Positions 13,895 to 62,142 of a stretch of 64,000 nt of DNA are shown in pieces; positions within the stretch are counted from its first letter, which is position 1, and each line of letters begins with the position of its first letter. The position numbers and the translations under genes are program-made. The notes under the pieces were generated by a model. The model did no database searches. It was not told the origin of the DNA and saw only the letters and a list, made by a program, of their open reading frames with translations. The DNA is taken from positions 1,674,001-1,738,000 of the forward strand of contig NW_027248941.1 of the NCBI RefSeq assembly GCF_036711975.1, read 5' to 3'. This DNA comes from Onthophagus taurus. Taxonomy: Eukaryota > Arthropoda > Insecta > Coleoptera > Scarabaeidae.

Positions 13895-14760
13895 TTTAGG
13901 TTCAGGGCTAAACCCAAAACTTCTAGTTCTAGGTCTAGTTAGCCGTGCGTCTTTAGAGTGCACTATCACTAGAACTAACACTAGACCTAGAACTAGAATC
14001 ATTCGGGTTTAGCCGTCTTGACAGACGTGCGGCTAAACCCGAATGATTCTAGTTCTCGGTCTAGTCTTAGTTCTAGTGATAGTGGTAGGTAGCGCTAGTT
14101 AGCATAAAATGGTATATATTTTTATTGAAGTAAAATTAGAACTAACACTAGACCTAGAACTAGAATCATTCGGGTTTAGCAGTCTTGAGAGACGTGCGGC
14201 TAAACCCGAATGATTCCAGTTCTCGGTCTAGTGTTAGTTCTAGTGATAGTGGTAGGTAGCGCTAGTTAGCATAGAATGGTATATATTTTTATTGAAGTAA
14301 AATTAGAACTAACACTAGACCTAGAACTAGAATCATTCGGGTTTAGCCGTCTTGAGAGACGTGCGGCTAAACCCGAATGATTCCAGTTCTCGGTCTAGTG
14401 TTAGTTCTAGTGGCAGTGGTAGGTAGTGTTAGTTAGTATAAAATGGTATATATTTTTATTGAAGTAAAATTAGAACTAACACTAGACCTAGAACTAGAAT
14501 CATTCGGGTTTAGCCGTCTTGAGAGACGTGCGGCTAAACCCGAATGATTCTAGTTCTCGGTCTAGTGTTAGTTCTAGTGATTGTGGTAGGTAGCGCTAGT
14601 TAGCATAAAATGGTATATATTTTTATTGAAGTAAAATTAGAACTAACACTAGACCTAGAACTAGAATCATTCGGGTTTAGCCGTCTTGAGAGACGTGCGG
14701 CTAAACCCGAATGATTCTAGTTCTCAGTCTAGTGTTAGTTCTAGTTTTAATTGTTATGCA
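13895..14760. repeat. Tandem array of five ~110-nt perfect hairpins
   Basis: Complete hairpins start at about 13971, 14128, 14305, 14472 and 14639, so the period is 157-177 bp. Each has arms of about 45 bp ending in ATTCGGGTTTAGCCGTC and its inverse around a short loop. Between hairpins lies a conserved linker, GTAGGTAGCGCTAGTTAGCA, then TGGTATATATTTTTATTGAA. Copies are very alike, so the array is young. Confidence 0.9.
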
Positions 14761-28613: not shown

Positions 28614-31600
28614 TTGTCAAAATAGATATTGATCAATCGATATTGATTCTCAAGTGTTATCTTTAATAACTTGAAAGAGCAACAAATACATCAAATTTTT
28701 ATATTTTCGTATATATCTCGATATTGACGTATTTAAGAGCAAAAGTGCAAGAGAGCAATATTGTTAATAATAAAATTTGCAACAATTTTTGTTATAAAAG
28801 TTTTCTTATAACAAGCTCCAATTCTCAAGTGGTACCTTTAATAACTTAAAAGAGCAACAAATTCATATAATTTTCATATTTATCTCGATATTGACGTATC
28901 TAAGAGCAATAGTGCAAGAGAGCAATATTGTTGATAATAAAATTTGCAACAATTTTTGTTATAAAAGTTTTCTTATAGCAAGTTCCGATTCTCAAGTGTT
29001 ACGTTTAATAAATTAAAAAGCAACAAATTCATACAATTTTCATATTTATCTCGATATTGACGCATCTAAGAGCAAAAGTGCAAGAGAGTAATATTGTTAA
29101 GAATAAAATTTGCAACAATTTTTGTTATAAAAGTTTTCTTATAACAAGTTCCGATTCTCAACTGTTACTTTTAATAAATGAAAGAGCAACAAATTCATAT
29201 AATTTTCATATTTATCTCGATATTGACGTATCTAAGAGCAAAAATGTAAAAGAGCAATATTGTTGATAATAAAATTTGCAACAATTTTTGTTATAAAAGT
29301 TTTCTTATAACAAGTTCCGATTCTCAGGTATTACTTTTAATAAATGAAAGAGCAACAAATTTATACAATTTTCTTATTTATCTCGATATTGACGTATTTA
29401 AGAGCAAAAGTGCAAGAGAGCAATATTGTTAAGAATAAAATTTGCAACAATTTTTGTTATAAAAGTTTTCTTATAACAAGTTCCGATTCTCAAGTGTTAC
29501 CTTTAATAAATGAAAGAGCAACAAATTCATACAATTTTCATATCTATCTCGAAATTGACGTATCTAAGAGCAAAAGTGCAAGAGAGCAATATTGTTAAGA
29601 ATAAAATTTGCAACAATTTTTGTTACAAAAGTTTTCTTATAACAAGTTCCGATTCTCAAGTGTTACCTTTAATAAATGAAAGAGCAACAAATTCATACAA
29701 TTTTCATATCTATCTCGAAATTGACGTATCTAAGAGCAAAAGTGCAAGAGAGCAATATTGTTAAGAATAAAATTTGCAACAATTTTTGTTACAAAAGTTT
29801 TCTTATAGCAAGTTCCGATTCTCAAGTGTTACTTTTAATAAATCAAAGAGCAACAAATTCATGCAATTTTCATATTTATCTCGATATTGACGTATCTAAG
29901 AACAAAAGTGTAAGAGAACAATATTGTTGATAATAAAATTTGCAACAATTTTTGTTATAAAAGTTTTCTTATAACAAGTTCCGATTCTCAAGTGTTACTT
30001 TTAATAAATGAAAGAGCAACAAATTCGTACAATTTTCATATTTATCTCGATATTGACGTATCTAAGAGCAAAATTGTAAGAGAGCAATATTGTTGATAAT
30101 AAAATTTGCAACAATTTTTGTTATAAAAGTTTTCTTATAACAAGTTCCGATTTTCAAGTGTTACCTTTAATAAATGAAAGAGCAACAAATTTATACAATT
30201 TTCATATTTATCTCGATATTGACGTATCTAAGAGCAAAATTACAAGAGAGCAATATTATTAACAATAAAATTTGCAACAATTTTTGTTATAAAAGTTTTC
30301 TTATAACAAGTTCCGATTCTCAACTGTTACTTTTAATAAATGAAAGAGCACCAAATTCATACAATTTTCATATTTATCTCGATATTGACGTATCTAAGAG
30401 CAAAATTGTAAGAGAGCAATATTGTTGATAATAAAATTTGCAACAATTTTTGTTATAAAAGTTTTCTTATAACAAATTCCGATTCTCAACTGTTACTTTT
30501 AATAAATGAAAGAGCAACAAATTCATACAATTTTCATATTTATCTCGATATTGACGTATCTAAGAACAAAAGTGTAAGAGAGCAATATTGTTAAGAATAA
30601 AATTTGCAACAATTTTTGTTATAAAAGTTTTCTTATAACAAGTTCCGATTCTCAACTGTTACTTTTAATAAATGAAAGAGCAACAAATTCATACAATTTT
30701 CATATTTATCTCGATATTGACGTATCTAAGAACAAAAGTGTAAGAGAGCAATATTGTTAAGAATAAAATTTGCAACAATTTTTGTTATAAAAGTTTTCTT
30801 ATAACAAGTTCCGATTCTCAACTGTTACTTTTAATAAATGAAAGAGCAACAAATTCATACAATTTTCATATTTATCTCGATATTGACGTATCTAAGAACA
30901 AAAGTGTAAGAGAGCAATATTGTTAAGAATAAAATTTGCAACAATTTTTGTTATAAAAGTTTTCTTATAACAAATTCCGATTCTCAACTGTTACTTTTAA
31001 TAAATGAAAGAGCAACAAATTCATACAATTTTCATATTTATCTCGATATTGAGGTATCTAAGAACAAAAGTATAAGAGAGCAATATTGTTAAGAATAAAA
31101 TTTGCAACAATTTTTGTTATAAAAGTTTTCTTATAACAAGTTCCGATTCTCAACTGTTACTTTTAATAAATGAAAGAGCAACAAATTCATACAATTTTCA
31201 TATTTATCTCGATATTGACGTATCTAAGAGCAAAATTGTAAGAGAGCAATATTGTTAACAATAAAATTTGCAACAATTTTTGTTATAACAATTTTCTTAT
31301 AGCAAGTTCCGATTCTGAAGTGTTACTTTTAATAAATGAAAAAGCAACAAATTCATACAATTTTCATATTTATCTCGATATTGACGCATCTAAGAGCAAA
31401 ATTGTAAGAGAGCAATATTGTTGATAATAAAATTTGCAACAATTTTTGTTATAAAAATTTTCTTATAACAAGTTCCGATTCTCAAGTGTTACTTTTAATA
31501 AATGAAAGCGCAACAAATTCATACAATTTTCATATTTATCTCGATATTGACGTATCTAAGAGCAAAATTGCAAGAGAGCAATATTGTTGATAATAAAATT

Positions 31601-32275
31601 TGCAACAATTTTTGTTATAAAAGTTTTCTTATAGCAAGTTCCGATTCTCAAGTGTTACTTTTAATAAATGAAAGAGCAACAAATTCATACAATTTTCATA
31701 TTTATCTCGATATTGACGCATCTAAGAGCAAAAGTGTAAGAGAGCAATATTGTTAATAATAGAATTTGCAACAATTTTTGTTATAACAATTTTCTTATAG
31801 CAAGTTCAGATTCTCAAGTGTTACTTTTAATAAATGAAAGAGCAACAAATTCATACAATTTTCATATTTATCTCGATATTGACGTATCTAAGAGCAAAAT
31901 TGTAAGAGAGCAATATTGTTGATAATAAAATTTGCAACAATTTTTGTTATAAAAGTTTTCTTATAACAAGTTCCGATTCTCAAGTGTTACCTTTAATAAC
32001 TTAAAAGAGCAATAACTTCATACAATTTTCATATTTATCTCGATATTGACGCATCTAAGAGCAAAAGTGCAAGAGAGCAATATTGTTAATAATAAAATTT
32101 GCAACAATTTTTGTTATAACAATTTTCTTATAGCAAGTTCAGATTCTCAAGTGTTACTTTTAATAAATGAAAGAGCAACAAATTCAGACAATTTTCATAT
32201 TTATCTCGATATTGACGTATCTAAGAGCAAAAGTGCAAGAGAGCAATATTGTTAACAATAAAATTTGCAACAATT
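28614..32275. repeat. 166-bp satellite array A, about 22 monomers
   Basis: Units of 166 bp carry TTGACGTATCTAAGAGCAAA, AGAGAGCAATATTGTTAAGA and AAATTTGCAACAATTTTTGT with few changes. Exact 166-bp steps appear, for example, at 29344, 29510 and 29676. The array fills the space between the divergent genes UBE2L3 and RECQ5 and stops about 300 bp before the RECQ5 start. It is homologous to array B (34.4-41.6 kb) and the inverted pieces near 61 kb. Confidence 0.95.
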
Positions 32276-32573
32276 TCTCACTTTGTATTTAAACCCACCG
32301 ATTTTTTACCATTTAGTCGACATAGGTTGGCAACGCTGGTTGGTGCTAACTTCATTTTTGACTTTGACAGGTATTTGTTGTTATTTTTATTAACGCAAAT
32401 AAAGTCGTTTAAATCCGACTTTTTTATTAATTAATCCAATTTTAACATGGTGTAACTCATCATTTTAGGCATGGTAAAAATCGAGTGTGATTTATAAAAA
32501 TTAAAAAAAAAAACATAACCTCACTTTTTTTAGATATCGTTTTAAGCGAAAATAATAACATTTGAAGCAAGAA
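32276..32573 (+). promoter_or_regulatory. RECQ5 upstream region
   Basis: Unique sequence between array A and the RECQ5 ATG at 32574. It contains the 15-mer TAACCTCACTTTTTT at 32516-32530, shared with LRRC47. A possible 5' untranslated intron end (TTTTTTTAG) is at 32525-32533. Confidence 0.4.
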
Positions 32574-34376
32574 ATGGATGAGAATCAATTAAAGGATGTT
32601 TTAAAAAGTCGTTTCAATTTCAACACCTTCAAATCCAACCTCCAAAAAGATGCAATCATTAAAATCGTTCAAGAAAAAGCGGACGTTTTGGTTTCGATGC
32701 CTACGGGCTCGGGAAAATCGCTTTGTTACCAACTCCCCGCCGTGTTAAAAGAGAGGCAAACAACGTTGGTGTTTTCGCCGCTTTTAGCGTTAATAAAAGA
32801 CCAAATCGATCATTTAAAAGCGATTAAAATCCGAGCGGCGTCTTTAAACTCAAAAACTTTAAAAGGAGAGCGCGAAACGATTTTAACTGATCTAAAAAGT
32901 GTCTCACCTAACATTAAGTTATTGTATATAACCCCTGAGCAGGCTTCAACTCAAACTTTTAAGGAGTTATTTCAAAATTTGGTTAAATTTGATAAAATTG
33001 CGTATATTGTAGTTGATGAAGCGCATTGTGTGAGCGAATGGGGGCACGATTTTCGGCCGGATTATCTCAAATTAGGCGAATTAAGGAAGGGGAATGAGAT
33101 CCCTTTTGTTGCTTTAACCGCGACGGCCGGGGCGGAAGTCACAAAAGACATTATTTATAACCTAAAGTTATCAAAGAATTTAAAAATATTTAAATCGTCG
33201 TCGTTTCGCGAAAATTTATTTTACGACGTCTTTTTTATCAACATCCTCGACGATCCTTACTTGCATTTAAAACAATTTATCGAAAAACATTTATATTTTG
33301 ATAAAGAAATTGACGTGGAGAATAAAAAAAAATCTTGCGGGATCATTTATTGCAGAACTCGCGATCAAACCGAGGTTTTATCGACGAAATTAAATTCTTT
33401 AGGGGTGAAATCGACGGTTTATCACGCTGGGTTAAACCATAAGAATCGAATTGAGTGCCAAGAATCGTGGCAAAGCGGTTGCGTTCAAGTTATTTGCGCC
33501 ACAATTAGTTTTGGGATGGGAGTTGATAAAGCGTCGGTGCGTTTCGTGGTTCATTGGGGGGTCCCAAAGGATCCCGCGTCTTATTACCAAGAATCCGGGA
33601 GAGCTGGACGCGATGGAAAAAACTCGTTCTGTCGATTATATTATAACCGCTCCGATCGAAAAGCCGTCGAATTCTTAATAACCCAAGAACTCGGGAGATC
33701 CAAAGATAAAAAACAACGCGAGAATAAAGCCAAAAACGCGATGAAATCGTTCGCAAAAATCGTAGAATTTTGCGAATCCCCAAACGAGTGTCGCCATAAA
33801 TTATTTGCAAAACACTTTGGGGATGATTTTAAACGATGTAAAACTAAATGCGACGTTTGCGTTGATCCTAAAAAGGTCGAAAAAATGGTTGAGTTATATC
33901 TAACCAAAAGCATTCAATTTAATTCGCTCCCCCAAGACATTAATGATATGAATTATGACGACCTTTATGAGGGCGGGCGAAAAGCTGCTGATAATTACGA
34001 TAATAACGAAAACGATGAACGTAACATTTACGAAGAAAAAGCCAAAAAAGAAACTACCGAGCTAATTAGGAAACAATTTCAACTAAGGCGGAGTGCTCAA
34101 GAAGTATCAAAAGACACCATAGATAAGTTATTCGCGAAAAATTCTAAAGTTAAAGCGGCCGGGTCGACGAAAACTAAAGTTAAAGGGCTCACAATCGCAG
34201 CTAGGGAGCAATACTTTTCGAAAATGACCGAGGTTTTGATCGAAAATTATAATCAATGCGTTGAGGAGAAAGTTCTTGATGCAATCGATATTGAGGAATG
34301 TACCAAGGAATTAGAATACTCTACTTTTACCTCGGTTACGACGCTAATGATGTATCGAAACGCTTCAGCTAAATTG
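32574..34376 (+). CDS. RECQ5: RECQ5 DNA helicase, exon 1 (helicase core)
   Basis: 601 codons from ATG 32574 (MDENQLKDVL) to a phase-0 donor TTG|GTAAGT. The RecQ motifs appear in order: MPTGSGKSLCYQLP (Walker A, Lys48), VVDEAHCVSEWGHDFRP (DEAH box and aromatic loop, ~146-162), ALTATAG, YHAGLNHKNR, ICATISFGMGVDKA and YYQESGRAGRDG with the arginine finger. A four-Cys zinc site follows (VEFCESPNECRHK, then CKTKCDVC). RECQ5 is a 3'-5' helicase that strips RAD51 from DNA and limits conflicts with RNA polymerase II. The wide spacing before the second RecA lobe (HLYFDKEIDVENKKKSC) is a small insertion. The open frame runs nine codons into the intron before a stop, so joining to 41864 is required. Confidence 0.93.
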
Positions 34377-37300
34377 GTAAGTAAATGCTTTTCTCGAAAT
34401 TGACGCATTTGAGAGCAAAAATGATAAGATTAGGTACAACTTTCGTTCGAAAAGTTTTTTTGTAACATCATTAGATTCCCGAATACTACCACGACGAAGT
34501 AGTAAAATAACGAAATTCATCAAATTGTCATATTTTCGTATCTATCTCGATATTGACGCATCTGAGAGCAAAAATGAAAGAGAGCAATATTGTTAAGAAT
34601 GAAATTAGCTACAACTTTTGTTCTAAAAGTTTTTTTGTAAAATGATTAGATTCCCGAATATTACCATTACGAAGTAGTAAAATAACGAAATTCATCAAAT
34701 TTTCATATTTTCGTAACTATCTCGATATTGACGCATCTGAGAGTAAAAATGAAAGAGAGCAATATTGCTAAGAATAAGATTAGCTACAACTTTCGTTCAA
34801 AAAGTTTTTTTGTAACATGATTAGATTCCCGAATACTACCATTACGAAGTAGTAAAATAACGAAATTCATCAAATTTTCATATTTTCGTAACTATCTCAA
34901 TATTGACGCATCTGAGAGCAAAAATGAAAGAGAGCAATATTGCTAAGAATAAGATTAGCTACAACTTTCGTTCGAAAAGTTTTTTTGTAACATGATTAGA
35001 TTCCCGAATACTACCATTACGAAGTAGTAAAATAACGAAATTCATCAAATTTTCGTAACTATCTCGATATTGACGCATCTGAGAGCAAAAATTAAAGAGA
35101 GCAATATTGCTAAGGATAAGATTAGCTACAACTTTCGTTCGAAAAGTTTTTTTGTAACATGATTAGATTCCCGAATACTACCATTACGAAGTAGTAAAAT
35201 AACGAAATTCATCAAATTTTCGTAACTATCTCGATATTGACGCATCGGAGAGTAAAAATGAAAGAGAGCAATATTGCTAAGAATAAGATTAGCTACAACT
35301 TTCGTTCGAAAAGTTTTTTTGTAACATGATTAGATTCCCGAATACTACCATTATGAAGTAGTAAAATAACGAAATTCATCAAATTTTTATATTTTCGTAT
35401 CTATCTCGATATTGACGCATCTGAGAGCAAAAATGAAAGAGAGCAATATTGCTAAGAATAAGATTAGCTACAACTTTCGTTCGAAAAGTTTTTTTGTAAA
35501 ATGATTAGATTCCCGAATACTACCATTACGAAGTAGTAAAATAACGAAATTCATCAAATTTTCGTAACTATCTCGATATTGACGCATCTAAGAGCAAAAA
35601 TGAAAGAGAGTAATATTGCTAAGAATAAGATTGGCTACAACTTTCGTTCGAAAAGTTTTTTTGTAACATGATTAGATTCCTGAATGCTACCATTACGAAG
35701 TAATAAAATAACGAAATTCATCAAATTTTTATATTTTCGTATCTATCTCGATATTGACGCATCTGAGAGCAAAAATGAAAGAGAGCAATATTGCTAAGAA
35801 TAAGATTAGCTACAACTTTCGTTCGAAAAGTTTTTTTGTAACATGATTAGATTCCCGAATACTACCATTACGAAGTAGTAAAATAACGAAATTCATCAAA
35901 TTTTTATATTTTCGTATCTATCTCGATATTGACGCATCTGAGAGCAAAAATGGAAGAGAGCAATATTGCTAAGAATAAGATTAGCTACAACTTTCGTTCG
36001 AAAAGTTTTTTTGTAACATGATTAGATTCCCGAATACTACCATTACGAAGTAGTAAAATAACGAAATTTATCAAATTTTTATATTTTCGTATCTATCTCG
36101 ATATTGACGCATCTGAGAGCAAAAATGAAAGAGAGCAATATTGCTAAGAATAAGATTAGCTACAACTTTCGTTCGAAAAGTTTTTTTGTAACATGATCCG
36201 ATTCCAGAATACTACCATTACGAAGTAATAAAATAACGAAATTCATCAAATTTTCATATTTTCGTAACTATCTCAATATTGACGCATCTGAGAGCAAAAA
36301 TGAAAGAGAGCAATATTGCTAAGAATAAGATTAGCTACAACTTTCGTTCGAAAAGTTTTTTTGTAACATGATTAGATTCCCGAATACTACCATTACGAAG
36401 TAGTAAAATAACGAAATTCATCAAATTTTCGTAACTATCTCGATATTGACGCATCTGAGAGCAAAAATTAAAGAGAGCAATATTGCTAAGGATAAGATTA
36501 GCTACAACTTTCGTTCGAAAAGTTTTTTTGTAACATGATTAGATTCCCGAATACTACCATTACGAAGTAGTAAAATAACGAAATTCATCAAATTTTCGTA
36601 ACTATCTCGATATTGACGCATCGGAGAGTAAAAATGAAAGAGAGCAATATTGCTAAGAATAAGATTAGCTACAACTTTCGTTCGAAAAGTTTTTTTGTAA
36701 CATGATTAGATTCCCGAATACTACCATTATGAAGTAGTAAAATAACGAAATTCATCAAATTTTTATATTTTCGTATCTATCTCGATATTGACGCATCTGA
36801 GAGCAAAAATGAAAGAGAGCAATATTGCTAAGAATAAGATTAGCTACAACTTTCGTTCGAAAAGTTTTTTTGTAAAATGATTAGATTCCCGAATACTACC
36901 ATTACGAAGTAGTAAAATAACGAAATTCATCAAATTTTCGTAACTATCTCGATATTGACGCATCTAAGAGCAAAAATGAAAGAGAGTAATATTGCTAAGA
37001 ATAAGATTGGCTACAACTTTCGTTCGAAAAGTTTTTTTGTAACATGATTAGATTCCTGAATGCTACCATTACGAAGTAATAAAATAACGAAATTCATCAA
37101 ATTTTTATATTTTCGTATCTATCTCGATATTGACGCATCTGAGAGCAAAAATGAAAGAGAGCAATATTGCTAAGAATAAGATTAGCTACAACTTTCGTTC
37201 GAAAAGTTTTTTTGTAACATGATTAGATTCCCGAATACTACCATTACGAAGTAGTAAAATAACGAAATTCATCAAATTTTTATATTTTCGTATCTATCTC

Positions 37301-40300
37301 GATATTGACGCATCTGAGAGCAAAAATGGAAGAGAGCAATATTGCTAAGAATAAGATTAGCTACAACTTTCGTTCGAAAAGTTTTTTTGTAACATGATTA
37401 GATTCCCGAATACTACCATTACGAAGTAGTAAAATAACGAAATTTATCAAATTTTTATATTTTCGTATCTATCTCGATATTGACGCATCTGAGAGCAAAA
37501 ATGAAAGAGAGCAATATTGCTAAGAATAAGATTAGCTACAACTTTCGTTCGAAAAGTTTTTTTGTAACATGATCCGATTCCAGAATACTACCATTACGAA
37601 GTAATAAAATAACGAAATTCATCAAATTTTCATATTTTCGTATCTTTCTCAAAATTGACGCATCTGAGAGCAAAAATGAAAGAGAGCAATATTGCTAAGA
37701 ATAAGATTAGCTACAACTTTCGTTCGAAAAGTTTTTTTGTAACATGATCCGATTCCAGAATACTACCATTACGAAGTAATAAAATAACGAAATTCATCAA
37801 ATTTTCATATTTTCGTATCTTTCTCAAAATTGACGCATCTGAGAGCAAAAATGAAAGAGAGCAATATTGCTAAGAATAAGATTAGCTACAACTTTCGTTC
37901 GAAAAGTTTTTTTGTAACATGATTAGATTCCCGAATACTACCATTACGAAGTAATAAAATAACGAAATTCATCAAATTTTCATATTTTCGTATCTTTCTC
38001 AAAATTGACGCATCTGAGAGCAAAAATGAGACAGAGCAATATTGCTAAGAATAAGATTAGCTACAACTTTTGTTCTAAAAGTTTTTTTGTAATATCCTTC
38101 GATTTCCAAATACTACCATTACGTAGTAGTAAAATAACGAAATTCATCAAATTTTCATATTTTCGTAACTATCTCGATATTGACGCATCTGAGAGTAAAA
38201 ATGAAAGAGAGCAATATTGCTAAGAATAAGATTAGCTACAACTTTCGTTCGAAAAGTTTTTTTGTAACATGATTAGATTCCCGAATACTACCATTACGAA
38301 GTAGTAAAATAACGAAATTCATCAAATTTTCGTAACTATCTCGATATTGACGCATCTGAGAGCAAAAATGAAAGAGAGCAATATTGCTAAGAATAAGATT
38401 AGCTACAACTTTCGTTCGAAAAGTTTTTTTGTAACATGATTAGATTCCCGAATACTACCATTACGAAGTAGTAAAATAACGAAATTCATCAAATTTTCGT
38501 AACTATCTCGATATTGACGCATCGGAGAGTAAAAATGAAAGAGAGCAATATTGCTAAGAATAAGATTAGCTACAACTTTCGTTCGAAAAGTTTTTTTGTA
38601 ACATGATTAGATTCCCGAATATTACCATTACGAAGTAGTAAAATAACGAAATTCATCAAATTTTTATATTTTCGTATCTATCTCGATATTGACGCATCTG
38701 AGAGCAAAAATGAAAGAGAGTAATATTGCTAAGAATAAGATTAGCTACAACTTTCGTTCGAAAAGTTTTTTTGTAACATTATTAGATTCTCGAGTACTAC
38801 CATTACGAAGTAGTAAAATAACGAAATTCATCAAATTTTCATATTTTCGCAACTATTTCGATATTGACGCATCTGAAAGCAAAAATGAAAGAGAGCAATA
38901 TTGTTAAGAATGAAATTAGCTACAACTTTCGTTCGAAAAGTTTTTTTGTAACATGATTAGATTCCCGAATACTACCATTACGAAGTAGTAAAATAACAAA
39001 ATTCATCAAATTTTCGTATTTTCGTAACTATTTCAATATTGACGCATCTGAGAGCAAAAATGAAAGAGAGCAATATTGTTAAGAATAAGATTAGCTACAA
39101 CTTTCGTTCGAAAAGTTTTTTTGTAACATGATTAGATTCTCGAATACTACCATTACGAAGTAGTAAAATAACGAAATTCATCAAATTTTTATATTTTCGT
39201 ATCTATCTCGATATTGACGCATCTGAGAGCAAAAATGAAAGAGAGTAATATTGCTAAGAATAAGATTAGCTACAACTTTCGTTCGAAAAGTTTTTTTGTA
39301 ACATTATTAGATTCTCGAGTACTACCATTACGAAGTAGTAAAATAACGAAATTCATCAAATTTTCATATTTTCGCAACTATTTCGATATTGACGCATCTG
39401 AAAGCAAAAATGAAAGAGAGCAATATTGTTAAGAATGAAATTAGCTACAACTTTCGTTCGAAAAGTTTTTTTGTAACATGATTAGATTCCCGAATACTAC
39501 CATTACGAAGTAGTAAAATAACAAAATTCATCAAATTTTCGTATTTTCGTAACTATTTCAATATTGACGCATCTGAGAGCAAAAATGAAAGAGAGCAATA
39601 TTGTTAAGAATAAGATTAGCTACAACTTTCGTTCGAAAAGTTTTTTTGTAACATGATTAGATTCTCGAATACTACCATTACGAAGTAGTAAAATAACGAA
39701 ATTCATCAAATTTTCATATTTTGGTAACTATCTCGATATTGACGCATCTGAGAGCAAAAATGAAAGAGAGCAATATTGCTAAGAATAAGATTAGCTACAA
39801 CTTTCGTTCGAAAAGTTTTTTTGTAACATGATTAGATTCCCGAATACTACCATTACGAAGTAGTAAAATAACGAAATTCATCAAATTTTAATATTTTCGT
39901 AACTATCTCGATATTGACGCATCTGAGAGCAAAAATGAAAGAGAGCAATATTGCTAAGAATAAGATTAGCTACAACTTTCGTTGTAAAAGTTTTTTTGTA
40001 AAATGATTAGATTCCCGAATACTACCATTACGAAGTAGTAAAATAACGAAATTCATCAAATTTTCATATTTTCGTATTTTTCTCGATATTGACGCATCTG
40101 AGAGCAAAAATGAAAGAGAGCAATATTGCTAAGAATAAGATTAGCTACAACTTTCGTTGTAAAAGTTTTTTTGTAAAATGATTAGATTCCCGAATACTAC
40201 CATTACGAAGTAGTAAAATAACGAAATTCATCAAATTTTCATATTTTCGTAACTATCTCGATATTGACGCATCTGAGAACAAAAATGAAAGAGAGCAATA

Positions 40301-41863
40301 TTGCTAAGAATAAGATTAGCTACAACTTTCGTTCGAAAAGTTTTTTTGTAAAATGATTAGATTCCCGAATACTACCATTACGAAGTAGTAAAATAACGAA
40401 ATTCATCAAATTTTTATATTTTCGTATCTATCTCGATATTGACGCATCTGAGAGCAAAAATGAAAGAGAGCAATATTGCTAAGAATAAGATTAGCTACAA
40501 CTTTCGTTCAAAAAGTTTTTTTGTAACATGATTAGATTCCCGAATATTACCATTACGAAGTAGTAAAATAACGAAATTCATCAAATTTTCGTAACTATCT
40601 CGATATTGACGCATCTGAAAGCAAAAATGAAAAAGAGCAATATTGCTAAGAATAAGATTAGCTACAACTTTCGTTCGAAAAGTTTTTTTGTAAAATAATT
40701 AAATTCCCGAATACTACCATTACGAAGTAGTAAAATAACGAAATTCATCAAATTTTCATATTTTCGTATCTATCTCGAAATTGACGCATGTGAGAGCAAA
40801 AATTAAAGAGAGCAATATTGCTAAGGATAAGATTAGCTACAACTTTCGTTCGAAAAGTTTTTTTGTAACATGATTAGATTCCCGAATGCTACCATTACGA
40901 AGTAGTAAAATAACGAAATTCATCAAATTTTCATATTTTCGTAACTATCTCGATATTGACGCATCTGAGAACAAAAATGAAAGAGAGCAATATTGCCAAG
41001 AATAAGATTAGCTACAACTTTCGTTCGAAAAGTTTTTTTGTAACATGATTAGATTCCCGAATATTACCATAACGAAGTAGTAAAATAACGAAATTCATCA
41101 AATTTTTATATTTTCGTATCTATCTCGATATTGACGCATCTGAGAGCAAAAATGAAAGAGAGCAATATTGTTAAGAATAAGATTAGCTACAACTTTCGTT
41201 CGAAAAGTTTTTTTGTAACATGATTAGATTCCCGAATATTACCATTACGAAGTAGCAAAATAACGAAATTCATCAAATTTGTATATTTTCGTATCTATCT
41301 CGATATTGACGCATCTGAGAGCAAAAATGAAAGAGAGCAATATTGCTAAGAATAAGATTAGCTACAACTTTCGTTGGAAAAGTTTTTTTGTAACATGATT
41401 AGATTCCCGAATACTACCATTACGAAGTAGTAAAATAACGAAATTCATCAAATTTTCATATTTTCGTAACTATCTCGATATTGACGCATCTGAGAGCAAA
41501 AATGAAAGAGAGCAATATTGCTAAGAATAAGATTAGCTACAACTTTCGTTCGAAAAGTTTTTTTGTAACATGATCCGATTCGGTAAATGTTAGATATAAC
41601 CTCAACATTTTTCAAATTCATAAAAGCCACGTTTCTATGATTTTTTTTTGTTTCTAATTAATAAAAGGGAAATTTTAATTGTTAATAATAATTAGATCTA
41701 CGTTGGTTTCGCTTTATTATCCTAAAATAAATCGATTAATAATTAATTTTTGTCAACTAGTCGGTAATGAAGTTATCTACTTTCAAGGTCACTTTAAATT
41801 AGTTCAATTCTGTTTGTGTTTTGTATATTAATTAAATGTTAATACATTTAGAGCTATTTTTAG
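34377..41863 (+). other. RECQ5 intron 1, 7.5 kb, almost wholly satellite
   Basis: The donor GTAAGT at 34377 and the acceptor TATTTTTAG ending at 41863 are both good and keep phase 0. Satellite begins within about 15 bp of the donor and runs to about 41578. Only the last ~285 bp are unique. All other introns assigned in this window, apart from the transposon-filled CFAP61 one, are far smaller. Confidence 0.8.
34391..41578. repeat. ~165-175-bp satellite array B, about 42 monomers
   Basis: Each unit has TATTGACGCATCTGAGAGCA, GAAAGAGAGCAATATTGCTA, AGCTACAACTTTCGTTCGAA and CCGAATACTACCATTACGAA. Units differ by a ~10-bp indel (with or without ATATTTTCGT). A block of 1376 bp (about eight monomers) is repeated: markers at 35041, 35631, 35951 and 36194 recur 1376 bp later. 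A three-monomer block is repeated 525 bp apart (38689 and 39214). It is homologous to array A through the AGAGAGCAATATTG core. Confidence 0.95.
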
Positions 41864-42919
41864 ATTTCAAACATAAAATGTTGTACTCAAGAAAATCTCC
41901 TTTACGATGTCTTTGAAAATTTCCAACCGCAACCAAAAAAACTTGAAACTTTATCTGATTTTTTTCGAAATAGTTCCAAAATGAATTTATTAAAACTAAA
42001 TGAGCTAGATTTAAATAAAACTAAAAATATAAAGGAAATAAAAAATGATTTAAAATGCGAAAATATAAACGTCAATAATGAAGTTGGCGTTATTAAAGAT
42101 GTCGATAAAACAGATTTGGTTAGGGTTGATAAAATTGAGGTTAAGTCAACTTTCGATGGATTTAAACGAGCTAGTGAACTATTTAAAGTAAAATCGAATG
42201 AAAATGTGTTAAATTCATCGATAAAAGTCGACGATGAAACGGAACGTGTAAAAGAAAATCAAGAAATGGATAAAAATAAAATTAAAAATGATGATGGTGG
42301 TAAAATGGTGATCTCCGATAATACAAGACAAGTTATTGAGGAACGTTACGAGAATTTCGAACAAATCATTCGCGATTCTAAACGAATGATGGACGAGATG
42401 AGTGAAAGAATGGTCGATAAAAATAACGTTAAAAAAGACGATGGGGCGAAGAAAAAAGGGAGGGTTAAAGATCATAAACAGCCGGAGAAAAGTAACAAAT
42501 CAATTTCAAAGTTATTCGGTGATGATAGCGAGGAGGAGGAGGGTGTTAATAAAGATGTTGTGAAAAGAAAAGTGGAACTCGATGACGATGAAAAAGGAAA
42601 AAGAAAAAAATTGAAACGAAACGACGATATTAAAAAAGACGGAGAAAATAAATCTGGGAAATTAAAAAAGAACGAAATCGGGCTGTTGGTCGTTAAATTA
42701 TTAACACCGGCGTATACGGAGAAACGATTCGATTCGAAAGAAACGTTTAAAAGTATGGCTCGAACAATATCTCATTCGCTTTTAGATAAAGGTACGTATT
42801 ATTTATTTAAACAAGATTTTCGTAATCGTTTTATTTTTATAGATGAATCGGAAATAAAACGATTCGTCGCCGATTTTCTTTCGAAAAACGAGGAAATCAC
42901 AACAGCAACAACTTTATAA
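41864..42919 (+). CDS. RECQ5: RECQ5 DNA helicase, C-terminal exon(s)
   Basis: The frame is open from the acceptor at 41864 (ISNIKCCTQENLLYDVFENF) through to TAA 42917-42919, in phase with exon 1, so the full protein is about 950 aa against 991 in human. It is rich in Lys, Asp and Glu, with a basic stretch KGKRKKLKR as a likely nuclear signal. KSISKLFGDD sits where human RECQ5 has its PCNA-binding box, but the leading Gln is missing. The last part (IGLLVVKLLTPAYTEKRFDS, KETFKSMARTISHSLL) fits the Set2-Rpb1-interacting domain that binds phosphorylated RNA polymerase II. A 51-bp GTACGT..TTATAG segment at 42792-42842 may be a further intron; removing it restores SHSLLDKDESEIKRF, as in relatives. 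Confidence 0.85.
   Translation: MSNIKCCTQENLLYDVFENFQPQPKKLETLSDFFRNSSKMNLLKLNELDLNKTKNIKEIKNDLKCENINVNNEVGVIKDVDKTDLVRVDKIEVKSTFDGFKRASELFKVKSNENVLNSSIKVDDETERVKENQEMDKNKIKNDDGGKMVISDNTRQVIEERYENFEQIIRDSKRMMDEMSERMVDKNNVKKDDGAKKKGRVKDHKQPEKSNKSISKLFGDDSEEEEGVNKDVVKRKVELDDDEKGKRKKLKRNDDIKKDGENKSGKLKKNEIGLLVVKLLTPAYTEKRFDSKETFKSMARTISHSLLDKGTYYLFKQDFRNRFIFIDESEIKRFVADFLSKNEEITTATTL
42792..42842 (+). other. Candidate 51-bp intron inside the RECQ5 SRI domain
   Basis: It starts AAAG|GTACGT and ends TTTATTTTTATAG|ATG. It is AT-rich and 51 bp long, a multiple of three with no stop, so retained and spliced messages are both translatable. The retained form inserts 17 residues (including YYLFKQDFRNRF) into the helix-rich domain. 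Confidence 0.6.
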
Positions 42920-43140: not shown

Positions 43141-46100
43141 AGAATATAATAAAATTGATTTTAAACTAATTATAAGGAAGAAAATGAGAATATAACCTCA
43201 AAAATCAAAACGTCAAAGTAGAAATGTCAAAAATGACGTTTAAATTTTAAATGAAGTAAAAAATTTATTGATACTTTTTTTATTAAATAATGGGATAAAT
43301 ACCGTTTAAACAGGATTATAACGGTGTTTTCGAATGAAATTTACTATAATTTTATTAAATCTACAAGTAATTATTGTTATTTTTGGTCTTAAAAAGTGAA
43401 CGGTAAAGTAGAACGCGATTTTATCATTTCGAATTTTCTTTAAAGCTCTTCAAAGTTTAATTAATTATTTTTGTGTCACATTTTTAACCATTACAGATCG
43501 GTAATACTTAAGGCAGTTGTTAATTTATTTATTTATTTTCATTAAATTAAATAAAACGACTAGAAAAATTAAAGGAAAATTAAACGTCAAAAATGACAGT
43601 TGTCATATTTCGCCCTAATAATAATAAAATTGATTTTAAACAGTAATTATAAGGAAAAAAATAGGAATAATAACTTCAAAAATCAAAACGTCAAAGTATA
43701 AATGTCAAATGAAGTAAAAAATTAACCTCATTTTTGTGTATTAAAAATTTATTGATACTTTTTTTTATTAAATAATAGGATAAACACCGTTTAAACAGGA
43801 TTATAGCAGTGTTTTCGAATGAAATTCACTATAATTTTATTAAATCTACAAGTAATTATTGTTATTTTTGGTCTTAAAAAGTGAACGGTAAAGTAGAACG
43901 CGATTTTATCATTTCGAATTTGCTTTAAGGCTCTTAAAAGTTTAATTAATTATTTTTGTGTCACTTTTTTTAACCATTACAGATCGGTAATACTTAAGGC
44001 AGTTGTTAATTTATTTATTTATTCTCATTAAATTAAATAAAACGACTAGAAAAATTAAAGGAAAATTAAACGTCAAAAATGACAGTTATCATATTTCGCC
44101 CTAATAATAATAAAATTGATTTTAAACAGTAATTATAAGGAAAAAATAGGAATTATAACCTCAAAAATCAAAACGTCAAAGTATAATGTCAAAAATGACG
44201 TATAAACATCAAATGAAGTAAAAAATTAACCTCATTTTTGTGTATTAAAAATTTATTGATACTTTTTTTTATTAAATAATAGGATAAACACCGTTTAAAC
44301 AGGATTATAGCGGTGTTTTCGAATGAAATTCACTATAATTTTATTAAATCTACAAGTAATTATTGTTATTTTTGGTCTTAAAAAGTGAACGGTAAAGTAG
44401 AACGCGATTTTATCATTTCGAATTTTCTTTAAGGCTCTTAAAAGTTTAATTAATTATTTTTGTGTCACTTTTTTTAACCATTACAGATCGGTAATACTTA
44501 AGGCAGTTGTTAATTTATTTATTCTCATTAAATTAAATAAAACGACTAGAAAAATTAAAGGAAAATTAAACGTCAAAAATGACAGTTGTCATATTTCGCC
44601 CTAATAATAATAAAATTGATTTTAAACAGTAATTATAAGGAAAAAATAGGAATTATAACCTCAAAAATCAAAACGTCAAAGTATAAATGTCAAAAATGAC
44701 GTTTAAACATCAAATGAAGTAAAAAATTAACCTCATTTTTGTGTATTAAAAATTTATTGATACTTTTTTTATTAAATAATAGGATAAACACCGTTTAAAC
44801 AGGATTATAGCGGTGTTTTCGAATGAAATTCACTATAATTTTATTAAATCTACAAGTAATTATTGTTATTTTTGGTCTTAAAAAGTGAACGGTAAAGTAG
44901 AACGCGATTTTATCATTTCGAATTTTCTTTAAGGCTCTTCAAACTTTAATTAATTATTTTTGTGTCACTTTTTTTAACCATTACAGATCGGTAATACTTA
45001 AGGCAGTTGTTAATTTATTTATTTATTCCCATTAAATTAAATAAAACGACTAGAAAAATTAAAGGAAACTTAAACGTCAAAAATGACAGTTGTCATATTT
45101 CGCCCTAATAATAATAAAATTGATTTTAAACAGTAATTATAAGGAAAAAATAGGAATTATAACCTCAAAAATCAAAACGTCGAAGTATAAATGTCAAAAA
45201 TGACGTTTAAACATTAAATGAAGTAAAAAATCAACCTTATTTTTGTGTATTAAAAATTTATTGATACTTTTTTTATTAATTAATAGGATAAACACCGTTT
45301 AAACAGGATTATAGCGGTGTTTTCGAATGAAATTCACTATAATTTTATTAAATCTACAAGTAATTATTGTTATTTTTGGTCTTAAAAAGTGAACGGTAAA
45401 GTAGAACGCGATTTTATCATTTCGAATTTTCTTTAAGGCTCTTCAAACTTTAATTAATTATTTTTGTGTCACTTTTTTAACCATTACAGATCGGTAATAC
45501 ATAAGGCAGTTGTTAATTTATTTATTTATTCTCATTAAATTAAATAAAACGACTAGAAAAATTAAAGGAAAATTAAACGTCAAAAATGACAGTTATCATA
45601 TTTCGCCCTAATAATAATAAAATTGATTTTAAACAGTAATTATAAGGAAAAAATAGGAATTATAACCTCAAAAATCAAAACGTCAAAGTATAATGTCAAA
45701 AATGACGTATAAACATCAAATGAAGTAAAAAATTAACCTCATTTTTGTGTATTAAAAATTTATTGATACTTTTTTTTATTAAATAATAGGATAAACACCG
45801 TTTAAACAGGATTATAGCGGTGTTTTCGAATGAAATTCACTATAATTTTATTAAATCTACAAGTAATTATTGTTATTTTTGGTCTTAAAAAGTGAACGGT
45901 AAAGTAGAACGCGATTTTATCATTTCGAATTTTCTTTAAGGCTCTTAAAAGTTTAATTAATTATTTTTGTGTCACTTTTTTTAACCATTACAGATCGGTA
46001 ATACTTAAGGCAGTTGTTAATTTATTTATTCTCATTAAATTAAATAAAACGACTAGAAAAATTAAAGGAAAATTAAACGTCAAAAATGACAGTTGTCATA

Positions 46101-48600
46101 TTTCGCCCTAATAATAATAAAATTGATTTTAAACAGTAATTATAAGGAAAAAATAGGAATTATAACCTCAAAAATCAAAACGTCAAAGTATAAATGTCAA
46201 AAATGACGTTTAAACATCAAATGAAGTAAAAAATTAACCTCATTTTTGTGTATTAAAAATTTATTGATACTTTTTTTATTAAATAATAGGATAAACACCG
46301 TTTAAACAGGATTATAGCGGTGTTTTCGAATGAAATTCACTATAATTTTATTAAATCTACAAGTAATTATTGTTATTTTTGGTCTTAAAAAGTGAACGGT
46401 AAAGTAGAACGCGATTTTATCATTTCGAATTTTCTTTAAGGCTCTTCAAACTTTAATTAATTATTTTTGTGTCACTTTTTTTAACCATTACAGATCGGTA
46501 ATACTTAAGGCAGTTGTTAATTTATTTATTTATTCCCATTAAATTAAATAAAACGACTAGAAAAATTAAAGGAAACTTAAACGTCAAAAATGACAGTTGT
46601 CATATTTCGCCCTAATAATAATAAAATTGATTTTAAACAGTAATTATAAGGAAAAAATAGGAATTATAACCTCAAAAATCAAAACGTCGAAGTATAAATG
46701 TCAAAAATGACGTTTAAACATTAAATGAAGTAAAAAATCAACCTTATTTTTGTGTATTAAAAATTTATTGATACTTTTTTTATTAATTAATAGGATAAAC
46801 ACCGTTTAAACAGGATTATAGCGGTGTTTTCGAATGAAATTCACTATAATTTTATTAAATCTACAAGTAATTATTGTTATTTTTGGTCTTAAAAAGTGAA
46901 CGGTAAAGTAGAACGCGATTTTATCATTTCGAATTTTCTTTAAGGCTCTTCAAACTTTAATTAATTATTTTTGTGTCACTTTTTTAACCATTACAGATCG
47001 GTAATACATAAGGCAGTTGTTAATTTATTTATTTATTCTCATTAAATTAAATAAAACGACTAGAAAAATTAAAGGAAACTTAAACGTCAAAAATGACAGT
47101 TGTCATATTTCGCCCTAATAATAATAAAATTGATTTTAAACAGTGATTATAAGGAAAAAATAGGAATTATAACCTCAAAAATCAAAACGTCAAAGTGTAG
47201 TTGTCAAAAATGACGTTTAAACATCAAATGAAGTAAAAAATCAACCTCGTTTTTGTGTATTAAAAATTTATTGATACTTTTTTTATTAAATAATAGGATA
47301 AACACCGTTTAAACAGGATTATAGCGGTGTTTTCGAATGAAATTCACTATAATTTTATTAAATCTACAAGTAATTATTGTTATTTTTGGTCTTAAAAAGT
47401 GAACGGTAAAGTAGAACGCGATTTTATCATTTCGAATTTTCTTTAAGGCTCTTCAAACTTTAATTAATTATTTTTGTGTCACTTTTTTTAACCATTACAG
47501 ATCGGTAATACATAAGGCAGTTGTTAATTTATTTATTTATTCTCATTAAATTAAATAAAACGACTAGAAAAATTAAAGGAAACTTAAACGTCAAAAATGA
47601 CAGTTGTCATATTTCGCCCTAATAATAATAAAATTGATTTTAAACAGTAATTATAAGGAAAAAAATAGGAATTATAACCTCAAAAATCAAAACGTCAAAG
47701 TATAATGTCAAAAATGACGTTTAAACATCAAATGAAGTAAAAAATCAACCTCATTTTTGTGTATTAAAAATTTATTGATACTTTTTTTATTAAATAATAG
47801 GATAAATACCGTTTAAACAGGATTATAGCAGTGTTTTCGAATGAAATTTACTATAATTTTATTAAATCTACAAGTAATTATTGTTATTTTTGGTCTTAAA
47901 AAGTGAACGGTAAAGTAGAACGCGATTTTATCATTTCGAATTTTCTTTAAGGCTCTTCAAACTTTAATTAATAATTTTTGTGTCACTTTTTTTAACCATT
48001 ACACATCGGTAATACTTAAGGCAGTTGTTAATTTATTTATTCTCATTAAATTAAATAAAACGACTAGAAAAATTAAAGGAAAATTAAACGTCAAAAATGA
48101 CAGTTGTCATATTTCGCCCTAATAATAAAATTGATTTTAAACAGTAATTATAAGGAAAAAATAGGAATTATAACTTCAAAAACCAAAACGTCAAAGTATA
48201 AATGTCAAATGAAGTAAAAAATCAACCTCATTTTTGTGTATTAAAAATTTATTGATACTTTTTTTTTATTAAATAATAGGATAAACACCGTTTAAACAGG
48301 ATTATAGCAGTGTTTTCGAATGAAATTCACTATAATTTTATTAAATCTACAAGTAATTATTGTTATTCTTGGTCTTAAAAAGTGAACGGTAAAGTAGAAC
48401 GCGATTTTATCATTTCGAATTTTCTTTAAGGCTCTTCAAACTTTAATTAATAATTTTTGTGTCACTTTTTTAACCATTACAGATCGGTAATACTTAAGGC
48501 AGTTGTTAATTTATTTATTTCTCATTAAATTAAATAAAACGACTAGAAAAATTAAAGGAAAATTAAACGTCAAAAATGACAGTTGTCATATTTGACGTTT
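43141..48600. repeat. ~500-bp tandem array, about 11 monomers
   Basis: Units of about 480-510 bp include AATAGGATAAACACCGTTTA, TGAACGGTAAAGTAGAACGC, CCATTACAGATCGGTAATAC and ACTTAAGGCAGTTGTTAATT. A three-monomer block is duplicated 1507 bp apart (44181 and 45688; 45231 and 46738). Each unit has the near-palindrome AAATGTCAAAAATGACGTTT and TGACAGTTGTCA. The array fills the gap between the convergent genes RECQ5 and the SLC35G-type transporter. Confidence 0.95.
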
Positions 48601-54535: not shown

Positions 54536-56674
54536 ATGCTTAGAAACATATCATTTTTTGAGACGAACGTTAATTCCTCAATCCGATCATCATCATTTTT
54601 CAACCAACAAAAAATATGGCCCATAACGCGATGTCGCGCAGCGCTTCTCTCTGATCTCCCAATCCTCAACGAATTAGTCGATAAAACAACAGACTCACAC
54701 TTCGGAATGGACGATATCAAAGCAGCTTAGTAAGCAAAAAATTAATTATTTTATTTTAATTAATAATTTATTTTACGGTTTAAGCGAATTGAGTTATATA
54801 ACTTTGGTGGCCGAAACAAGGCAAGGTGAAATAGTGGCTGGAGTGTTTTTTAACAATTTCCCCAATTTAAGATCGATCCCACCGGACGATTGGGTACCAT
54901 GGATCATATACTCGTACAATTTAAACAACGCCAACAGTTCGAACACGCTTTTCGTTCATTTAGCCGTTTACAACCAACGATATTTGAAATTATTTTTGGA
55001 ACCCGTTTTAGAAAAAGTTTTTAAAAAATTCCTTCTCGTCCAATACGTAATCGTTATAATCCCAGCCCAAAAAAAATTCGTCGACTTCTTACCGTTAAAC
55101 GGCCTAAACTTACCAAGCACCTCAAATTGCCCAAACTCCCAAAAAATCATGCTTTATCTAAGACAAGATTACGATAAACACTACAAACTTCGCCAAGCCG
55201 TCATCGAAGACAACGACGATTTAATTCCTTTAATCGACACGCATAGTGAGAGATTGAAAAAAATGTACGGCGAATTTTATATGGCCGAAATAATATCCGA
55301 CGGAAAATCAAACCGACACACGATCGTGACGGAATACGAAGGATTAGCCGTCGGGATAATAATTTACAACGAAATCGTTAATTTAGAGATTTTAAAAAAT
55401 TATTTCCAACTCGAATGTTTCTACGGATTAAGAAAACACGTTCATTTCGACGACAAATACGATAAAGAGCACTACGATTCCGACAACTACGAGGACTACG
55501 ATTACTTAAACGAAGAAGATTACGACTTCATTCACTCGGATTCAGTCGAAACGGTATCAAGACACCGATCGATATCAAATCAAACACTTTCATTTAGCAT
55601 CTTTTCATCACCATCATCATCGGAATCATACTCAATATTGATCCCCCAAACGACGTGTTCGAGCGAAACCTCTCCTAACCCATCAGAAATCGTTTTTAAA
55701 GGCGTCGTTGAAGGCAAATTTAGCTCCAATTTATTGCACTTTAACGATAACGAATTACAAAGGGTGCGAAATCAAGACAAATTCGACGACGACCAAATAA
55801 AATCGGTTTCTTATTACGCAACTTTGAATAAGTTAGCGGAAGACCAGAGATATAACGGGCCGATTAACGCGTTTACTTTGGAGTTGTTGGCCGCGTGGCC
55901 CGAGCATGAAAAATCTTTGGTTGAATTGCTCCAAGCGGGGTTTGAATTGTTTCCGAATAAAGATTATTGCGTTTTATGCATCCCAAGTACAGCGCCGTTT
56001 TTTCAATTACTAACGAAGATGTTTATCAGGGTCACCCCGACGGGGGGATCAAACTTTGCGCACGAACTATACGTGGTTCATCGTAACTCGTTGTATTGCA
56101 GGATTTTGATTCGTAAAGCTACTTTGTACGATGTTAAAAACGTGAAAAAATTGTTGTCGAGGATGAGAAGTGGGCTAAAAGTGTTTCAAACTTTCCACAA
56201 ATACCTAACAAGTCATTACGATAACCACCAAACGTTCGTTGTTTTAGCGAATAACGAGATTGTGGGTGTCGTTAATGTAAAAGATTTAAATAATTCGGCT
56301 TATATATTCAATAGGTACCAAGTGTCGCGAATGACCGATTTGTCGAAACACAAACCGTGTTGTTTTGGGAGAATTAAACATTTCGCGTTGTCTCCGATTT
56401 TTCAAAGACACTCGCGATGGTTGTTGTTGGAGTTGCATCGCTTAACCGATTATAGTTTGTTGATACATCTCGTTGAGCCCGATGAAGGGACCACCATGTT
56501 TCGCTTCGATCCGTTGGCGTGCGTTTTGAATGAGTTAATGCCGGTGCTTCCTGCGAGGGTCCCCGAATTTGATACAAGCGATAAAGAAAATTGCGAATTT
56601 ATGCCGGTTATGATGCACGATGAACGACCGTATGCTGTTTATATGTCGACGCCGATGTATTGCGGATTATCCAG
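54536..56674 (+). CDS. CFAP61: CFAP61, exons 1-2 (acetyltransferase-like N-terminal half)
   Basis: Exon 1 (54536-54729) starts MLRNISFFETNVN and carries RCRAALLSDLPILNELVDK, the opening of the first acetyltransferase-like fold. A 55-bp intron is followed by exon 2 (54785-56674), joined as KAAY|ELSYITLVAETRQG. DDWVPWIIYSYNLN, FVHLAVYNQRYLKLFLEPVL, LLVQYVIVIIPAQKK and, later, LYVVHRNSLYCRILIRKATL fit the CFAP61 pattern. Between them sits a low-complexity acidic and Tyr-rich stretch (DDKYDKEHYDSDNYEDYDYL) and a Ser-rich linker. CFAP61 is part of the calmodulin- and spoke-associated complex at the base of radial spokes in motile axonemes, here presumably of sperm. The 54789 Met often proposed as a start is internal; exon 1 supplies the true N-terminus. 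Confidence 0.87.
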
Positions 56675-56694
56675 GTAAAAATAATATTAATTAA

Positions 56695-60839: not shown

Positions 60840-61420
60840 CTACCTACCAAATTTGATAAATTTCGTTGTTTTACAAGTTATTGATGGTAACACTTGGAAA
60901 TCGGAGTATGTTATAAGAAAACTTTTAGAACAAAAGTTGTAGCAAATTTTGTTCTGAACAATATTGCTCTCTTGTATTTTTGCTCTCAGATGCGTCAATA
61001 TCGAGAAAAATATGAAAATTTGAAAATTTATTGAATTTCCTTGTTTTACTATTAGCTAATGGTAGCATTCCGGGATCAAAGCATGTTATAAAAAAACTTA
61101 TAGAACAAAAGTTGTAGCAAATTTTGTTCTGAACAATATTGCTCTCTTATATTTTTGCTCTCAGATGCGTCAATATTGAGAAAAATACAAATATATGAAA
61201 ATTTATTGAATTTGCTTGTTTTACTATTAGCTAATGGTAGCATTCGGGAATCAAAGCATGTTACAAAATAATTTTTAGAACAGAAGTTGTAGCAAATTTT
61301 GTTCTGAACAATATTGCTCTCTTGTATTTTTGCTCTCAGATACGTCAATATCGAGAAAAATACGAAAATATTGAAATTTGATGAATTTCGTTGTTAATGG
61401 TAACACCTTGAAATCAGTAG
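60840..61420 (-). repeat. Satellite array C, about three inverted monomers
   Basis: GAACAATATTGCTCTCTTGT and TTTTTGCTCTCAGATGCGTC recur at about 60960, 61140 and 61310. These are the inverse of arrays A and B (AGAGAGCAATATTG, GACGCATCTGAGAGC). A further piece is at 61745-61805 (CAATATTGCTCTCTTTCACT). It lies in the CFAP61 intron on the strand opposite to arrays A and B. Confidence 0.9.
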
Positions 61421-62142
61421 ATAATGAGCGTTCTGGACCTTAAGTTAATCCCCCTTATCCCGCTGTGACGTCACGCTCCCATGTTATAAGCATAGGGAGT
61501 GGTGCCAACTTAAACTTGGGGGAAAAAAAATTAGGTTAAAAATTAAGTTTTAAATTTAAAAATATAACACAACGTCATCTATCGTTCATCAGACAAACTT
61601 AAAAATTGTCACTTTTAGGCAACCAACAACTCACGCGCCCCTTTCGCCCCTAGGTGGCGCGATTTTTAAGATTTTTCTAGTTATCTTTTTTAAAAAGTCA
61701 CCAGATCTAGTAACTTTTCGAATACCAACCTAATTTCTTTCTTTAAAGTTGTAGCAAATTTTACTCTTAACAATATTGCTCTCTTTCACTTTTACTCTCA
61801 GATGCATCAAATCAGTAAGCTTGGCAACTTCTTATTATATATTAGTATCTTAGCATCTTCTTAACCTTGGTTAATCAGTTCCTAAGTTTAAGTTAGCTGA
61901 TGTATTTGTCACATCTTTCTTTTATATGCCGATAACAGCAAAACATTGCCCCGATTTGTTCACTGTGTGAAGTCTCTCCAACACTCTCAAACATCTTGGC
62001 GTTCTCTTTCTTCGGCTCCTATCACACAAATTTTTCTTACCATATTGCGACTATGCTCTGCGATACACAGTTTTCGGCATCCTTCTTTTTCAACTTTTCT
62101 ACTACACAATAAATTGAAATCATTTTAATATTTCCATTTTAG
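61421..62142. other. Remainder of CFAP61 intron 2
   Basis: Contains a satellite fragment at 61745-61805 and CCCCTAGGTGGCGCGATTTT at 61649, which has an AGGTGGCGC core like insect CTCF sites. Nothing else is recognised. Confidence 0.4.

Follow-up and report, generated by a model that had tools for sequence, protein, structure and literature searches.

Satellite DNA in introns

Satellite repeats are described from the introns of several insect genes. In Tribolium castaneum, 1416 TCAST elements are intronic and 957 are intergenic (available text of PMC5844308). After heat stress, TCAST1 repeats, including those in introns, suppress neighbouring genes, and the effect depends on copy number and involves H3K9me2/3 (available text of PMC4537270). 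In the Drosophila Y genes, the satellite introns are far larger and transcription depends on splicing (available text of PMC11207136). In oysters, satellite-like monomers are carried by Helentrons (available text of PMC7492417).

The locus described here lies in a 64,000-bp stretch of the Onthophagus taurus assembly (the window; contig NW_027248941.1, 1,674,001 to 1,738,000), and all coordinates without a locus name are positions in it. The array is a real, well-bounded satellite that has expanded in place within an intron of RECQ5, an intact gene, and it is ordinary in kind. By description it resembles TCAST, in that repeats of a dispersed satellite family lie inside introns of ordinary genes. 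However, TCAST occurs preferentially as single repeats (0.6-2.8 monomers in the available part of the expression table), whereas about 42 copies fill 96% of the RECQ5 intron. As in the gigantic introns of the Drosophila Y (available text of PMC6508621 and PMC11207136), satellite DNA between coding exons is transcribed, in the case of RECQ5 by prediction. The Y introns are megabases long and belong to a spermatocyte gene programme, whereas the RECQ5 array measures 7.2 kb and lies on a 3.24-Mb contig. The family as a whole resembles the Helentron-borne repeats in its dispersed short arrays of satellite-like monomers, as at loci L018 and L023. The RECQ5 array differs from this type of carriage because it lacks the L018/L023 flanks and its 3' flank occurs once in the genome. 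A literature search on satellite arrays within insect introns gave nothing on point among the matches listed, and unprecedented size is not claimed. The RECQ5 intron is a large example of a phenomenon that is already known.

Structure of the RECQ5 gene

The predicted gene consists of the following parts.

32574 to 34376, forward strand: RECQ5 coding exon 1, 601 codons, with the helicase core, the zinc-binding domain and most of the IRI/KIX-aligned region (frame, Pfam, phmmer and limits from the available text of PMC7073763)
34377 to 41863, forward strand: predicted intron, the first within the coding sequence, 7487 bp, GTAAGT...TTTTTAG, 96% satellite (sequence, frame)
41864 to 42791, forward strand: RECQ5 coding exon 2, with the end of the KIX-aligned region, a linker and the start of the SRI domain (frame, Pfam, phmmer)
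42792 to 42842, forward strand: 51-bp intron within the SRI-coding part (frame, Pfam)
42843 to 42919, forward strand: last coding exon, including the stop (frame)

The pieces between 32574 and 42919 read as one gene, the sole RECQ5 found in the assembly. Joined, the three coding pieces give 935 codons with no internal stop. The product has the RecQ helicase core and zinc-binding domain, an IRI/KIX region and a C-terminal SRI domain, as RECQ5 proteins do; DEAD, Helicase_C, RecQ_Zn_bind and SRI all exceed their Pfam cutoffs (SRI 34.8 bits, cutoff 23.5). Its best PDB match in phmmer is human RECQL5 (E 1.7e-151). A single alignment of query residues 3-617 to human residues 13-620 crosses the exon junction at 601/602, which corresponds to about human residue 604, and the SRI part aligns to the human protein separately.

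The frames joined across 34376/41864 are both phase-0. A TAG overlaps the acceptor of the large intron, so the exon 2 frame has no possible upstream extension, and the first Met in that frame is codon 40. In a protein search of the whole 290.8-Mb assembly (38 of 38 candidates scored), no second RECQ5 copy was found; the only matches at 99-100% are the two pieces described here and the next two are 41% identical. The homology through the junction, the matching frame, the TAG at the acceptor and the lack of a second copy in that search argue against two separate genes. The sequence indicates that the transcript is probably spliced as drawn.

In human RECQL5, the IRI region spans residues 490-620, the KIX domain residues 515-620 and the SRI helices residues 910-950 (available text of PMC7073763). 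With the junction near residue 604, most of KIX/IRI is encoded before the intron. By this alignment, the intron interrupts KIX/IRI close to its end, and the SRI domain alone lies wholly beyond the intron. The original prediction that the intron splits the helicase core from the polymerase-binding C-terminus is thus correct for SRI but not for most of KIX/IRI. The claim that every full-length RECQ5 pre-mRNA must cross the array is supported by the one-gene structure and the position of the SRI-coding part. The coding exon, previously taken to reach 34400, ends at 34376. The SRI domain scores 34.8 bits with the 51-bp intron removed and 33.7 bits unspliced; this small intron is open in frame, so its retention is possible.

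The intronic array

The large intron is made up of the array and a unique 3' part, in addition to the few bases next to the donor.

34389 to 41581, forward strand: satellite array with 42 anchors and 41 full monomers (153, 167 or 175 bp) in one clade, mean pairwise identity 93.5% (TRF, BLAST, monomer comparison, tree)
41582 to 41863, forward strand: 3' part of the intron, acceptor side, 282 bp, whose one genome match is itself

The donor GT starts at 34377 (AAATTG/GTAAGT) and the acceptor TTTTTAG ends at 41863. Similarity to the family spans 34389-41581 in BLAST, so that the onset is 12-15 bp inside the intron, close to the expected 15 bp. Counted from 34392, the array covers 7190 of 7487 bp (96.0%), which bears out the expectation of more than 95% satellite. 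The expected number of about 42 monomers is likewise recovered: TRF reports 41.3 copies of 175 bp with a score of 12552, far above chance. The monomers are non-coding, run head-to-tail (one unit of 153 bp, the remainder 167 or 175 bp) and are locally homogenised, and arrays of the same family occur elsewhere in the genome, as in a satellite array.

An origin of the array in misassembly or in misplacement of a repeat is highly improbable. Copy-number errors are possible for assemblers where identical blocks are spaced 1376 bp apart, as they are here. However, the window contains no N, the monomers form a single private clade, the array flanks are exactly splice-compatible, the 3' flank is single in the genome and the assembly consists of 33 contigs for 290.8 Mb.

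The satellite family in the window and genome

Two further arrays of the family are present in the window.

28645 to 32276, forward strand: diverged array of the RECQ5-intron family with a 166-bp unit, about 74% identical to the array in the RECQ5 intron (TRF, similarity)
60849 to 61395, reverse strand: array of the RECQ5-intron family, 0.55 kb, about 84% (similarity)

The upstream array (3.6 kb) ends 298 bp before the RECQ5 ATG and, read on the strand of RECQ5, has about two AATAAA in each monomer. The second array is bracketed by CFAP61-matching pieces at 54678-56675 and 62129-62923. Because it lies between CFAP61 exons, it is presumably intronic and antisense to CFAP61. In the assembly, the family has at least 365 matches, with six contigs among the matches listed, and one 23-mer of the family has 1733 exact copies in the genome. 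RECQ5 is therefore not special, since the family also occurs between CFAP61 exons and in many other places. On contig C1 (L031-L036), the arrays and the few coding-like frames listed by the script gave no recognisable pair of exons flanking an array.

Some arrays share flanks with one another. Those at L018 (5409-5945) and L023 (6399-6935) are both 537 bp long with both flanks in common, and the right flank also occurs in L022 and L028. Given the common flanks, L018 and L023 probably represent a mobile element that carries about three monomers. At L027 (1-9300, contig C5), three array blocks lie in a row and have a common left flank. The right flank, too, is common to the two blocks whose right end is contained in the locus, and this forms a higher-order repeat of array plus spacer.

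Growth and origin of the array

In the midpoint-rooted tree of 277 monomers, the 41 intron monomers form one clade (support 0.845). The tree is based on 55 arrays of at least 340 bp, with all RECQ5 monomers and at most six per other array, and units outside 150-190 bp are excluded. The closest relatives of the RECQ5 monomers are the arrays L010 and L011, on the same contig and about 155-160 kb away. Support is 0.435 and 0.764 at the nodes that connect L011 and L010, and reaches 0.942 in the next wider clade, one node deeper.

Within the array, there are 12 exactly identical monomer pairs. Seven are at a spacing of 8 monomers, two at a spacing of 3 and one each at spacings of 1, 12 and 20. One duplicated block spans eight monomers.

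34903 to 36278, forward strand: block of monomers m03-m10, 1376 bp, with its copy m11-m18 at 36279-37654; seven of eight monomer pairs identical (monomer comparison)

The single clade and the exact block duplications indicate that the array grew in place. The identical pairs are what duplication of blocks through unequal exchange would be expected to leave.

The array is flanked on both sides, at a distance of 1 bp, by the 7-bp direct repeat GTAAATG, which is at most a hint of an insertion-made duplication. Among the 43 arrays with both flanks available, the flanking repeat is 7 bp in one (RECQ5, the longest), 5 bp in six and 4 bp or shorter in the others. Repeats of at least 7 bp occur in 0.9% of mismatched flank pairs, which corresponds to about 0.4 expected among 43 arrays, and repeats of at least 5 bp occur in 7 of 43 arrays compared with about 4.2 expected. 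A target-site duplication as a trait of the family was rejected, as the 43 arrays have no clear excess over mismatched flank pairs. Fixed transposon ends were also rejected: start phases vary and the flanks differ in most arrays. The exceptions are repeated blocks, for example in L027 and L011, and the element common to L018, L023, L022 and L028. Carriage by a transposon was not found for the RECQ5 array, whose 5' flank is RECQ5 exon 1 and whose 3' flank is single in the genome. With the array masked, the RECQ5 flanks have no match of 150 bp or longer in L009-L030.

The RECQ5 array is very likely a passenger: a dispersed satellite that seeded the intron, expanded in place and is transcribed and spliced out. 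Traces of such a history can be read in the gene, its splice-compatible junction, the single monomer clade, the recent block duplications and the wide dispersal of the family. The seed would have been one or a few monomers of a dispersed, nucleosome-length satellite family, placed about 12 bp inside the first coding-sequence intron of an otherwise normal RECQ5. It would then have expanded in situ to about 42 copies via unequal exchange or slippage, in blocks of 1-8 monomers, with the donor and the 282 bp of unique 3' intron with its acceptor retained. RNA polymerase II would traverse about 7.2 kb of repeat, which would be removed with the intron.

Poly(A) signals

In most family arrays sampled, AATAAA occurs about once per monomer on the strand that corresponds to the RECQ5 sense strand, and the intron array mostly has AATAAG. 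The arrays are a non-random sample, with L009-L028 picked by similarity to the RECQ5 array and L031-L036 by the presence of AATAAA. The count of 32/43 for the AATAAG 23-mer is biased because the pattern was derived from the RECQ5 array.

This pattern could be read as selection that purged premature poly(A) signals from an array transcribed in the sense direction. The intron array has 0.14 AATAAA per monomer, among the five lowest of 55 arrays, itself included. First-order resampling predicts a mean of 16.2 AATAAA (sd 4.0) for the intron array, in which six are observed in about 42 monomers; for the array upstream of RECQ5 it predicts 9.9, and 40 are observed. The CFAP61 array is antisense and has no AATAAA on that strand. 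However, AATAAG is shared by the sister array L011, which carries 0.17 AATAAA per monomer and has no evident gene next to it; a founder variant is therefore a sufficient explanation. No evident gene was found at L010-L011 among frames of at least 70 aa; membrane-protein-like frames are present in L029, some 8 kb away. Low values are also not confined to RECQ5: with its array included, 5 of 55 arrays lie at or below 0.14 AATAAA per monomer, and among the 21 arrays that reach 2 kb, 3 lie at or below 0.2. In six intron monomers, AATAAA was gained at another site by the change from GTAGTAAAAT to GTAATAAAAT, partly by copying. Two sense-strand AATAAA lie within the unique 282 bp of the intron. The array sense strand also has 39 copies of AGTAAA, a related hexamer that serves as a minor poly(A) signal. 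Purging is suggestive but weakened by L011, the six gained sites and the 39 AGTAAA, and it is very unlikely as the explanation. The founder variant accounts for the AATAAA pattern at least as well as selection.

Possible effects on RECQ5

RECQ5 is an anti-recombinase that binds RNA polymerase II. The array could regulate this gene, either through satellite RNA or siRNA that sets H3K9me2/3 on the intron or through slowed polymerase or premature ending that favours a short form; by analogy with TCAST1 this is conceivable, although unlikely. The TCAST1 precedent includes intronic repeats and is stronger with more copies (available text of PMC4537270), and the RECQ5 array shares the intronic location, as judged from frame and homology. 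The frame through the donor continues exon 1 with VSKCFSRN (8 codons) to a stop at 34403, and premature ending in the array would yield a predicted 609-residue protein without SRI. Short isoforms do exist for human RECQ5, but these forms (1-410 and 1-435) end earlier, lack the IRI region and are a different product (available text of PMC7073763). A literature search for short isoforms of Drosophila RecQ5 gave nothing relevant among the matches listed. GTAAGT, GTGAGT, GTATGT, GTACGT and GTAAGA have no occurrence inside the array, which leaves little sign of strong decoy donors.

Repeats that form R-loops have a G-rich non-template strand and positive GC skew. The array has a GC content of 29.6%, a GC skew of 0.004 and no GGG on the sense strand. 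This composition is unfavourable to the original prediction that R-loops couple the array to RECQ5 output. If the array is a passenger, its effect on RECQ5 would be nil to mild, and any effect would probably resemble the copy-number-dependent H3K9me2/3 suppression of TCAST1 and not R-loops.

A feedback has also been considered, in which the satellite, transcribed and recombining, gates the SRI-bearing form of RECQ5 and growth of the array lowers that form, loosening control over the array. It has only the slightest likelihood. The same slight likelihood applies to its corollary, that array length would depend on RECQ5 activity and the scarcity of AATAAA on the transcribed strand would reflect selection for a gate that stays passable.

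Most likely the array is neutral, and in that case it is simply an ordinary by-product of a genome rich in satellites. The locus offers a clean natural case in which to ask how much satellite the intron of a genome-stability gene tolerates without harm to expression. Its value as a test case is based on the intact frame, the absence of a second copy in the assembly search, the recent block duplications and a probably variable array length. It also supplies a testable hypothesis on orientation and poly(A) signals for intronic satellites.

Other tandem repeats

Between RECQ5 and an EamA transporter frame, about 11 copies of a roughly 500-bp tandem repeat are present at 43146-48580. With a period at the limit of what the repeat finder handles, it is missing from that program's list. 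Among telomere repeats, TCAGG gave no match, and TTAGG gave three overlapping matches at a single place, compared with 11 for the reversed control. At L029 (4481-9831), three similar, small, proline-rich frames that resemble membrane proteins by eye lie amid several tandem arrays. At 13970-14745, a 167-bp tandem unit contains a long inverted repeat; judged by eye, its arms measure roughly 45-50 bp, which would allow each monomer to form a hairpin. Sequence related to this unit occurs at 11.8-12.1 kb and in L021.
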